Of a stretch of DNA of 64,000 nt, positions 11,507 to 16,056 are shown piece after piece. The DNA comes from Thermosulfuriphilus ammonigenes (GTDB lineage Bacteria > Desulfobacterota > Thermodesulfobacteria > Thermodesulfobacteriales > ST65). The notes beneath the pieces are model-generated. The model searched no databases and was not told where the DNA came from. It worked only from the letters and a program-made list of their open reading frames with translations. The stretch spans positions 984,576 through 1,048,575 of the forward strand of contig NZ_CP048877.1 in the NCBI RefSeq assembly GCF_011207455.1, in the 5' to 3' direction. Every line of letters starts with the position of its first letter. Within the stretch, counting starts at the first letter, position 1. A program made the position numbers and the translations under genes.

Positions 11507-12640
11507 TTAAACACGGATCAGAAGACACTTGAGATAAGCGGTCTCAGGCATGGAAAGAAGGACAGGGTGGTCCGGAGATTGCCCCCGGATCTCCAGAAGA
11601 CGGGCAGGACGGAGAAGCCCCTGGGCCGCCTGCTGCACCAGGTGCTGATGTTCCTGGAGAGAGAGATGGTGCGAGCAGGAGCAGGAGATGAGGAGCCCTC
11701 CAGGCTTCAGGGCTTTGATGGCCAAGTGATTGAGACGACGGTAATTTCTAAGGCCGGCGGCAAGATGTGATCTCTTTTTGATAAGGGCCGGCGGATCAAC
11801 AATGACCACGTCAAAAGGCCTTTGAGGACGCCTGAGAAAGGAGAAAACATCCTCCTGGAGGAACTGAACCTCCAGACCGTTGCGCTGGGCCGCCAGCCGG
11901 GCCTGAGAGATGGCCCAGGCCGAACGATCTACCCCTAAGATCTCCCTGGCCCCGGCGGCCGCCGCGTTGAGAGCCCAGCCGCCAAGGTAACAAAAGAGGT
12001 CAAGGATCCGCCGACCAGAGAAAAATCTGCAGGCGGCCTTCTGATTCTCCCGCTGATCCAGAAAAAGACCCGTCTTTTGGCCGGATTCAGGATCAACTGG
12101 AAAAAGAAGACCCCCTACCTTCACCCAGTAGGGAAGAGGAAAGGTCCCCCGAACAAATCCCCGGGGAATATCAAGCCCTGGGCCGGGTTGGAGGAAAAAA
12201 GCCCCTTGGGGAAAGAGCTCCTCTAGGGCCGCTAAAACACTTTTGAGACGGGTGGCCATGCCAACGGTGGCCACCTGAAGGACAAAAAGATCCCCATAGC
12301 GATCAACAATAAGGCCCGGGAGAAAATCTGCCTCGCTAAAGACCAACCGGTAGGCAGGCTCTCCCGGAAAAAGTTCCCGGCGCAGGCAAAGGGCCGCTTT
12401 AAAACGTTCTCTAAAGAAATCCACCTCCGGGGAAACCACCTCCGTGGCCACCACCCGGAGAGCGATAGATCTCTGGAAATCAAGGTATCCGGTGGCCACT
12501 GGCTCCCCTCTGGGGCTAAGGAGAATCAGCCAGGTCCCCGGAGGCCAATGGGGGCTTTCGGCCAGATCGTCCATCTTCAGCCAAAGGCGACCGGAGAGAA
12601 TTTTTCTAAGGCCTCCCGGTGTCAAACGCAGAGCCTTCAC
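11507..12640 (-). CDS. rRNA cytosine-C5 methyltransferase, RlmI-like
   Basis: 377 residues: an N-terminal PUA domain (about 1-75), a linker domain, then a Rossmann SAM-dependent methyltransferase ('ILDLFCYLGGWALNAAAAG' is the SAM loop, 'VDPPALIKK' the NPPY-like motif, 'SCSCSHHLS' the catalytic Cys region). The family methylates 23S rRNA C1962 in E. coli (RlmI) or neighbouring cytosines. The gene overlaps the preceding acyl-CoA synthetase by 4 bases. The exact target base cannot be told from sequence. Confidence 0.9.
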   Translation of the reverse strand: MKALRLTPGGLRKILSGRLWLKMDDLAESPHWPPGTWLILLSPRGEPVATGYLDFQRSIALRVVATEVVSPEVDFFRERFKAALCLRRELFPGEPAYRLVFSEADFLPGLIVDRYGDLFVLQVATVGMATRLKSVLAALEELFPQGAFFLQPGPGLDIPRGFVRGTFPLPYWVKVGGLLFPVDPESGQKTGLFLDQRENQKAACRFFSGRRILDLFCYLGGWALNAAAAGAREILGVDRSAWAISQARLAAQRNGLEVQFLQEDVFSFLRRPQRPFDVVIVDPPALIKKRSHLAAGLRNYRRLNHLAIKALKPGGLLISCSCSHHLSLQEHQHLVQQAAQGLLRPARLLEIRGQSPDHPVLLSMPETAYLKCLLIRV

Positions 12641-14418
12641 GAATACATCTCCTCGATCTCATGGGCATATCTTTTACTGATCAGGGCCCGCCTCTTCTTT
12701 AAAGTGAAGGTGAGAAGCCCGTTTTCCAGAGTCCAATCCTCGGGAATGAGCCGGACTGCCCCTACATGCTCAAAGGGATGGACTCGAGCCCGGGAAAGAA
12801 TGGCCTTTATCTCCTGATGGATAAAGTCCCGGGCCTCCGGAGATCGGCAGAGATCCGGCCAACTCAGATCAAGCCCCCTTTGCCTGGCCCACTCCAGAAG
12901 CCTTTCTCGATCAGGGACTACCAAGGCCCCAAGGAATTTGCGATCCTGACCAACAAGCATCACCTGGGAGATAAAGGGGCTCTCAAAAAGGAGGGCCTCG
13001 ATGGGGTCAGGATCAACGTTCTCACCGCTGGACAGGACAATGACATCCTTAAGGCGACCACAGATGATAAGATCTCCCCGAGGAGTAAAACAACCCAGAT
13101 CCCCGGTCTTAAGAAAACCGTCATCAGTAAAAATGGCGGCAGTGGCCGAAGGATTTTGCCAGTACCCCTTCATCACCTGAGGCCCCCTGACCAAAACCTC
13201 CCCCTTTTCTGGAGGCTCAATGCGGATCTCCGTTCCCGGCAGGGGCGGCCCTACTGTACCTGGCAGGTTACGTCCCTTATAACGAACAGAGATCACCGGA
13301 GAGGTCTCGGTGAGGCCGTAGCCGTTAAAGAGGGGCATCCCTATGGCCTCGTAGAAATCATCAAGTTCGGGAGCCAACGTGCTCCCGCCGCTTATGGCCA
13401 TCTCCACCGAGCCGCCAAAAACCCCCCTCAGCCGCCGGAAGAAAACGGCCTCAGCCAGAAGCCAGGGGAGGAAGAAGATAAGACCGCCGCCCAGGCCGCC
13501 GAGAAGATGCTTAAGGCGAGCCATGGGGCCGACGGCCGCGGTCTCCCCCCGGATCATCTTAAGGGAACGGCGGAAGAGGAGCCCCACCCTCAGGGCTCGC
13601 TTAAACCAGGCCTCAAGCCCCCTTGAAGCCACCTCCTGGTTGATCCGCTGATAAAAGGCCTCCCAGAGACGGGGAACCCCCACCAGATAATGAGGGCGAT
13701 GGCGCCTTAAGTCCTCCCGAAAATGGCGCTTGTCGCTAAAGATTATCTCTACCCCGGAAGACAGGAGAAGATACTCAACGGTGCGCTCCAGCATATGGTA
13801 GGGCATAAGAAGGGAGAGATAGCGCTTTCCCGGCCGAGGCCTGAGCACAGTCTGGCAGGCCAAGACGTTGGAGGCAATGTTGGCCTGGGTAAGCATTACT
13901 CCCTTGGGGTTGCCGGTGGTGCCAGAGGTGTAAACAATAGTGGCCAGGTCGTCAGGGAGAGCCCCTGGCTTTCGAAACTCATCCTGACCCAGGTTCTCTA
14001 CAACAAAGACTTCCGGGTCTCGGGCCACTAAGGAAAGCACCTTCTCCAACTTAGAAAGCCCTTGGGGCTCGACGACCACAGCCATGGCCTGGGAGTGATC
14101 AAGGAGAAAGGCCAGTTCCTCCTCGGGGGCAGAGATTCCTCGGGGAACAGTGACTAAACCGGCTATCTGGGCTGCCAGATCCGCAATTAACCAGTTGGGA
14201 CCGCTGTCAATATAGATGGCCACCCTCTCCCGAGGAGAGAGCTTCCTTTCCTCAAACTTCCGGGCCAGAAAGCTTGCCCTCTGCCACAACCCACCATAGG
14301 AAATGGTCTGCCAGCTTTTCCCCTCCCTGAACGTCAGGGCTGGAAGACCTTCGTAGGCCTTTACAGCCCGGAAGATGAGATCAGAAACGGTGGTAATCAT
14401 GGGGTTTTCGTCAGCCAT
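12637..14418 (-). CDS. AMP-forming acyl-CoA synthetase (FadD-like)
   Basis: 593 residues of the ANL superfamily. The ATP/AMP loop 'YTSGTTGNPKGVMLT' is near 163-177, 'FNGYGLTETSPVIS' is the adenylate motif, and 'TGDLGCFTPRGDLIICGR' is the hinge with the conserved Asp. The C-terminal domain ends in 'LTFTLKKRRALI', where the Lys of the usual 'TxTxKxxR' motif is kept. It probably activates long-chain fatty acids with CoA. It shares the pattern of the long-chain synthetases common in delta-proteobacteria rather than short acetate enzymes. It overlaps the next gene by 4 bases. Confidence 0.92.
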   Translation of the reverse strand: MADENPMITTVSDLIFRAVKAYEGLPALTFREGKSWQTISYGGLWQRASFLARKFEERKLSPRERVAIYIDSGPNWLIADLAAQIAGLVTVPRGISAPEEELAFLLDHSQAMAVVVEPQGLSKLEKVLSLVARDPEVFVVENLGQDEFRKPGALPDDLATIVYTSGTTGNPKGVMLTQANIASNVLACQTVLRPRPGKRYLSLLMPYHMLERTVEYLLLSSGVEIIFSDKRHFREDLRRHRPHYLVGVPRLWEAFYQRINQEVASRGLEAWFKRALRVGLLFRRSLKMIRGETAAVGPMARLKHLLGGLGGGLIFFLPWLLAEAVFFRRLRGVFGGSVEMAISGGSTLAPELDDFYEAIGMPLFNGYGLTETSPVISVRYKGRNLPGTVGPPLPGTEIRIEPPEKGEVLVRGPQVMKGYWQNPSATAAIFTDDGFLKTGDLGCFTPRGDLIICGRLKDVIVLSSGENVDPDPIEALLFESPFISQVMLVGQDRKFLGALVVPDRERLLEWARQRGLDLSWPDLCRSPEARDFIHQEIKAILSRARVHPFEHVGAVRLIPEDWTLENGLLTFTLKKRRALISKRYAHEIEEMYS

Positions 14419-14524: not shown

Positions 14525-14555
14525 AAAAAGAAATCCTGTGGGGAGGGGACTCACT

Positions 14556-14723
14556 TTGAAGTGTAAGATTTGCGGCGCCAAGCTAGAACTCTTTCGGAGC
14601 TGACGCTCGGTTTATTTCCGCTGCCAGGTCTGTCAGCGGACGTATCGCCTCTCAGATCTTAAAGACGAAATAGACGAAGAGATCGAAACCATTCTGGCCT
14701 ACACTCGGTGTGACCGCCTGTAA
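14556..14723 (+). CDS. Small dual-CXXC selenoprotein (in-frame UGA = Sec16)
   Basis: 55 residues when UGA at 14601-14603 is read as selenocysteine. It starts at TTG with GGGAGGGG upstream (spacing about 9). Before the UGA: 'MKCKICGAKLELFRS'; after it: 'RSVYFRCQVCQRTYRLSDL' and an acidic helix ending 'ILAYTRCDRL', then TAA. The reading frame, the two zinc-ribbon CXXC pairs (C3/C6, C23/C26) and the protein-like quality on both sides of the UGA show it is one gene. A SECIS-like hairpin follows the UGA by 14 bases. I recall a family described as dual-CXXC small selenoprotein, with Cys in non-Sec members; its function is unknown. A redox or metal-handling role is inference. A strong terminator lies downstream. 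Confidence 0.85.
14601..14640 (+). promoter_or_regulatory. SECIS-like element for selenocysteine insertion
   Basis: Starting at the UGA (14601-14603), CCGCTG (14618-14623) pairs perfectly with CAGCGG (14634-14639). Inside, after one C-T mismatch, CA/TG close a GGTC loop (14627-14630). A GGUC apical loop a short distance after UGA is what SelB recognises in E. coli fdhF (from memory). The element is inside the coding frame, as bacterial SECIS elements are. Confidence 0.8.
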
Positions 14724-14791: not shown

Positions 14792-14825
14792 TTAAGGGGG
14801 GCGGCTTTTTGGCCGCCCCCCTTAA
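14792..14825. terminator. Strong bidirectional terminator
   Basis: A perfect 14-bp inverted repeat, TTAAGGGGGGCGGC (14792-14805) and its complement (14812-14825), with a 6-base loop. It separates the plus-strand selenoprotein gene from the minus-strand FBP aldolase/phosphatase gene. It is the clearest stem-loop terminator in the window. The flanking TTAA ends give an A/T tract on either strand. Confidence 0.85.
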
Positions 14826-14838
14826 GCCCTGTTAAATT

Positions 14839-15981
14839 TTAGTCCATATCTTCCTTCTCCAGTATTTTGGCATCCTTGGCCATCTTTTCTCCCGAATCCA
14901 TAAAACGATCCTTAAGGCGCTCCATAACCTTGGGCAAAGTGGTGTACTCCATCTCCTCGGGAGGCAATCTGTGGGGTTCGAAGATTCCCTGGCGCCGCAG
15001 GCGATTGGCCATGTAGGAGCATTCGTGCCTGGCCATATCAAAGGCCGGGTCATCAAAGAGATCCACCGGACCTACCAGTCGGCCATTGCAGATCTGATAG
15101 CCAGCGGCAATTACCCGGGGCGGACCATCAAACCGGGTGGGTTTTGCCTGCTTAAAGGAGACGGGCATCAGAGGACCGGTGTGGGACCCCCGCATCCAGC
15201 CCTCCACCAGCCAGGGACGTCCAAAGGGCTCGAGGATCTCTCCAATGGCCGGGAAACCGCTCTGAGACCTCACCGCCAGGACCGGGTCATCCTTACCCAC
15301 ATACTGACCGGCCATAAGAGAAAGCCTCTGGGTAGAGGCCGCAGCCGCTATCTCCCCATCGGAATTGCGGTATACGGCCCGAACGACATACTTGCTTACT
15401 GAACCAATAAGGGCCAGAAGGTCATAAAGTTCGGCCGGAGTCTTCAGCTTGACCACCTTCCCGGTATAAACATCCATAATCTCAAAGGTAAAGCCACCGT
15501 GCATTGAAGGGTCGATAACCAGGCCGGCGGTGTTCATAGGGTCAGCAAACATCTCGTAGAGGGGAAGATTCCAGGCGCTGGGGGCGGTCTTGTCGGCGAA
15601 AAAGACAATCACCGGCTCACTCTTCCTCTCTTCAAACTCCATCTCGGCAATCCCCGGTCCTAAGCCTCGAACATTGCCCGAGAAGGCATCTGAGAGAAGA
15701 TCCTGGCCGGCCCCGTAGAGCTTCAGGTCTCTGGCCACCTGGGTTCCGGCCACAAAGGCATCCCAGGCCAGCTTGTGAATCTTCTCGTTATCCACCCCCT
15801 GCTGGTGGGTCATCACCAAGGCAATGTCGTCACCACAGGTAAGGACCGAAACGTCTATAAGCAGATCCCCTTTGGCCGCCTGGGCTACCTCCGTTACCTT
15901 AGCCACCACTTCGGGATGGGTGGAAGAATGACCGACGTATCCTCCGATGTCGGCCTTAATGATAGAAAGCGTGATTTTCAT
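14839..15981 (-). CDS. fbp: Bifunctional fructose-1,6-bisphosphate aldolase/phosphatase (FBPase V)
   Basis: 380 residues from the ATG at 15981 with AGGAGGT just upstream; the start at 16008 lacks such support. The protein begins 'MKITLSIIKADIGGYVGH' and has the acidic metal-binding and phosphate segments of type V FBPase. This enzyme condenses triose phosphates and removes the C1 phosphate, making gluconeogenesis one-way. The 'QYVGKDDP' motif keeps the Tyr-x-x-Lys spacing reported for the aldolase lysine in archaeal enzymes. It is found in archaea and deep-branching or thermophilic bacteria. Its neighbours include a second, class I aldolase. Confidence 0.95.
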   Translation of the reverse strand: MKITLSIIKADIGGYVGHSSTHPEVVAKVTEVAQAAKGDLLIDVSVLTCGDDIALVMTHQQGVDNEKIHKLAWDAFVAGTQVARDLKLYGAGQDLLSDAFSGNVRGLGPGIAEMEFEERKSEPVIVFFADKTAPSAWNLPLYEMFADPMNTAGLVIDPSMHGGFTFEIMDVYTGKVVKLKTPAELYDLLALIGSVSKYVVRAVYRNSDGEIAAAASTQRLSLMAGQYVGKDDPVLAVRSQSGFPAIGEILEPFGRPWLVEGWMRGSHTGPLMPVSFKQAKPTRFDGPPRVIAAGYQICNGRLVGPVDLFDDPAFDMARHECSYMANRLRRQGIFEPHRLPPEEMEYTTLPKVMERLKDRFMDSGEKMAKDAKILEKEDMD

Positions 15982-16056
15982 AGAATACCTCCTTTCTCTT
16001 TTCCTCAATCTTTTAAATAAAAGCCCTTCCGGGTCTTTCCCGGCCGGGCCCTATCT

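Follow-up and report, generated by a model that had tools for sequence, protein, structure and literature searches.

Does the TGA triplet at positions 14601-14603 (+ strand) of the Thermosulfuriphilus ammonigenes window (the whole stretch of 64,000 nucleotides analysed here) end a short frame, or does it encode selenocysteine (Sec) within a longer gene, and if so, what might the product do? A plain gene caller sees only 15 codons at this place, and elsewhere in the window TGA is a normal stop, closing many other long frames; both points speak for an ordinary stop followed by a frame that is non-coding or belongs to a decayed gene. The first-pass annotation had instead taken the UGA as Sec, joining a C3/C6 half and a C23/C26 half in one frame.

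Frame, start and surroundings of the gene

With the TGA read as Sec, the gene extends from a TTG start at 14556 to a TAA stop at 14721-14723 (14556-14723, + strand) and encodes a product of 55 residues, LKCKICGAKLELFRSURSVYFRCQVCQRTYRLSDLKDEIDEEIETILAYTRCDRL, whose landmarks are the pairs C3/C6 and C23/C26 and the Sec residue U16. The ribosome-binding site claimed for it was recovered as the candidate GGGAGGGG at 14541-14548 (+ strand), 7 nt upstream of the TTG. Initiation at the TTG gives the N-terminus MKC, which several relatives with an ATG start share. An alternative in-frame start, GTG at 14538, would give MGRGLTLKC, and translation may possibly begin at this longer start, since N-terminal extensions of about 8-14 residues, ending in GLKC-like motifs, occur in some relatives from this order.

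The gene lies alone between two genes of the opposite strand, which from our own reading of their translations we take to be an AMP-binding-ligase-like gene (12637-14418) and a fructose-bisphosphatase-like gene (14839-16008). Regarding its borders, the candidate promoter proposed earlier was not recovered, the promoter scan at the locus giving no sigma-70-like promoter, and of the strong terminator only part stood: a perfect 14-bp inverted repeat (14792-14825, -32 kcal/mol) lies between the convergent genes, but it has no clear T-run and the terminator scan at the locus was empty. From its sequence, this repeat could possibly act as a bidirectional terminator.

Assignment to the dual-CXXC family

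The translated product was compared with the profile NF041197, "dual CXXC motif small (seleno)protein" (CxxC_Se_CxxC, NCBIfam), which is included in the current NCBI models and has a curated cut-off of 40 bits. It matched with 61.9 bits (E 4.7e-17), residues 3-55 of 55 being aligned to profile positions 1-53; because the curated family is matched across both halves, the read-through frame goes beyond chance. The coordinates and frame proposed for it proved exact. C3/C6, U16 and C23/C26 follow the layout of the family and coincide with the columns that are invariant among 56 sequences of the same type (C3, C6, C16 or U, C23 and C26).

A small selenoprotein family with two CXXC motifs had been named in the first-pass annotation, and this family indeed exists, as NF041197 / OS_HP3. 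A 2026 review lists OS_HP3, with the motif RxU, for NF041197, and attributes its first report to work from 2007 on the Olavius algarvensis symbiont by Zhang and Gladyshev (PMC13188914). The same review files under this model the "hypothetical protein DW", with the motif GxU (PMC13188914), which was reported in 2025 with deep-Sep (PMC12013277). The product shares with OS_HP3 a full-length match above the cut-off, the two CXXC motifs, the Sec column, the RxU motif (R14-S15-U16) and the C-terminal CDRL, and differs from it in sequence divergence only, with 29-51% identity to the aligned OS_HP3-type members. Hypothetical protein DW has the same CXXC-Sec-CXXC layout with equal spacing, but it carries GxU in place of RxU, lacks the C-terminal DRL and falls into a separate clade, the RxU and GxU types being split in the tree with support 99/98; the GxU type of the present analysis would correspond to DW, the two being identified by motif only. 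The gene is therefore an additional member of a catalogued bacterial family and not a new family. Its significance, which is modest, lies in the unsolved function of the family; because plain gene callers truncate these genes at the UGA, each confirmed member aids annotation.

Conservation of the Sec column and selenocysteine machinery

Matches to the family were found in 38 of 99 relatives (E limit 1e-3) and in 91 of the 395 genomes sampled in the phylum (E limit 1e-7). By our own count, the 94 matches in the phylum sample comprise 67 that contain a single in-frame TGA, 26 that are full-length and stop-free and one that is partial. Pattern scans of the contig collection found no relatives, probably because the Sec column was read as Cys or the query was too divergent.

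Homologues that continue past the UGA, one of the observations by which the proposal could be judged, were found throughout the alignment, with Sec or Cys at the U16 column in all 78 loci aligned. The sequence downstream of the UGA is conserved family-wide and not decayed in the relatives, and Cys stands at the UGA position in several lineages, both of which weigh against an ordinary stop. In addition to the five columns named above, the 21 sequences of the GxU type keep G8, G14, V21, E40 and E44 invariant. A basic residue usually follows Sec directly in the RxU type, and a DR[LIVF]-like C-terminal motif, under a pattern that accepts close variants too, is present in 39/39 Sec members of this type, 27 of which have a Cys directly before it.

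The Cys forms are located at four separate spots of the tree (two clades, of ten and of six members, a single form next to a Sec sister, and another inside the GxU type), as we read them from a drawn tree built on only 54 columns, the tool's own count having left many rows out. Two isolated Cys forms (L050:6968 and L127:6488) adjoin Sec sisters in the tree and constitute natural Sec/Cys pairs. Having such natural Cys forms in several lineages makes a Sec/Cys comparison practical.

The absence of sel genes, which had been named as a refutation, did not occur, and their presence is a further point against an ordinary stop: in the genome, searched as one contig of 2,287,345 bases, all four components scored above their cut-offs, namely tRNA-Sec (selC, 76.4 bits), SelB (393 bits), SelA (633 bits) and SelD (376 bits, with one in-frame TGA). 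The SelD gene (748881-749804, - strand of the contig; L088, G000:C1) is itself a selenoprotein gene, with the motif RASGUAAKLG. SelB was also present in 70 of the 75 related genomes searched, among them G054 and G091, which carry Cys forms; since both retain SelB, losing the machinery does not account for the Cys form there.

A hairpin downstream of the UGA

A bSECIS-like hairpin, TCCGCTGCCAG-GT-CTGTCAGCGGA, occupies positions 14617-14640 (+ strand) and begins 13 nt after the TGA, its arms at 14617-14627 (TCCGCTGCCAG) and 14630-14640 (CTGTCAGCGGA) being 91% complementary. Such a position directly downstream of the UGA is that of bacterial SECIS elements, and the sister type has a hairpin there likewise. 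The region 11-41 nt from the TGA was folded at every locus and set against 1000 synonymous-codon variants drawn with local codon usage. In this test the hairpin of the window gene (-12.4 kcal/mol) gave z -4.1 and p 0.006. The mean z was -1.89 for 60 Sec loci, with p < 0.1 in 70% of them, against -0.08 for 18 Cys loci (Mann-Whitney p 2.7e-7, and 1.2e-5 for the RxU type alone, values that are optimistic as the loci are related). The hairpin is thus specific to Sec loci, which again disfavors an ordinary stop.

Among 16 loci of the GxU type, the stem of 7 pairs is kept, with 112/112 cells paired, and the column pair 18-27 is AU in 8 loci and GC in the other 8, through GTA/GTG and CTT/CTC swaps that are both synonymous; these paired synonymous changes point to selection on the RNA.

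The comparison of sequences argues strongly against the reading of the UGA as an ordinary stop, which we regard as extremely unlikely. A pseudogene with a stop was rejected, and so was genome-wide recoding of UGA, given the other long window frames that TGA ends. Taking gene, family (NF041197 / OS_HP3) and Sec jointly, we are highly confident that this is a real selenoprotein gene. In the mechanism that we propose, SelB with Sec-tRNA would read the UGA at 14601-14603 as Sec, presumably aided by the downstream hairpin.

Predicted fold and possible role of Sec16

We are far less sure of the biochemical role than of gene, family and Sec. An AlphaFold2 model from 56 sequences (pLDDT 85) has strands at residues 9-14, 19-23 and 29-31 and helices at 32-38 and 41-48, and places Sec16 in the turn (15-18) of a beta-hairpin, with the CXXC pairs at its opposite end. 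The product would accordingly be pictured as a small zinc ribbon in which C3/C6 and C23/C26 hold one zinc; this zinc would be structural, and the exposed, reactive selenol, at the predicted tip away from the CXXC knuckles, would be the working group on a rigid scaffold. Sec usually serves a redox or nucleophilic function, and we lean toward the selenol of Sec16 being such a center, acting on a partner protein or a small molecule. Cys replaces Sec16 in several lineages. A simple intramolecular selenyl-sulfide redox pair is not general, because 12 of the 39 RxU-type Sec members lack, at that position, the C-terminal Cys (of CDRL) that might resolve such a bond.

Sec16 could otherwise be a metal ligand, in a metal carrier or sensor and not in a redox center; a small protein resembling a zinc ribbon, with four invariant Cys and a Sec, would suit this, as would a weak profile similarity of part of the product to the HypA zinc domain. 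We consider it rather unlikely, for the model puts Sec in the turn of the hairpin, apart from the four Cys, and no metal-related gene is found among the conserved neighbours of about 78 loci.

Fold searches returned generic zinc ribbons only. The best Foldseek match had E 0.37, and a second-look search had as its best the zinc ribbons of RPB9 (Z 4.0, rmsd 1.9-2.3, 36-39 residues); with matches this weak, and with zinc ribbons being common, no function can be read from the fold. The ribbons of RPB9 / RPC11 (RNA polymerase II and III subunits) share the zinc-ribbon layout, with Z ~4 over 36-39 residues, but have no Sec and no significant sequence relation to the product, and a score of this size may mean just a common arrangement. 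Being the closest fold matches, they lend something to the idea of an accessory zinc ribbon of transcription or translation whose Sec tip enters the active site of a partner in the manner of TFIIS-like ribbons, as do the basic residue after Sec and some neighbours that look to us like translation genes (truA or alaS). With Z ~4 within the range of common arrangements and neighbours that vary between families, we hold this to be very unlikely.

A more novel reading would be a catalytic finger, in which the selenol-bearing tip of the modelled zinc-ribbon hairpin reaches into a partner enzyme, one genome retaining it as two paralogs, of the RxU and the GxU type. We know of no description of Sec as a catalytic finger on a zinc-ribbon tip, and the idea is speculative and quite unlikely as it stands.

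Second copy and neighbours across the family

The genome of T. ammonigenes carries both paralogous types, RxU and GxU. The other gene for a dual-CXXC selenoprotein, DW-like and of the GxU type, is located outside the window at 1603474-1603602 of the contig (+ strand; G000:C1, L039:7475); as a protein it scored 35.3 bits against NF041197, below the cut-off of 40, while two other GxU-type proteins reached 42.5 and 46.7 bits. Its own hairpin after the TGA gave p 0.08 against synonymous shuffles.

Across the approximately 78 loci analysed, no gene neighbour common to the families and no functional partner gene was found, only lineage-bound neighbours, which in our own reading of the sequences resemble asd, truA, pyrE, dnaX, topA, fabD and alaS. 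In the clade of Cys forms whose C-terminus reads IIYD or similar, the dual-CXXC gene often directly follows the end of a pyrE-like gene on the same strand (L060, L123, L124, L125, L126 and L129), and the two genes possibly form an operon in this clade.
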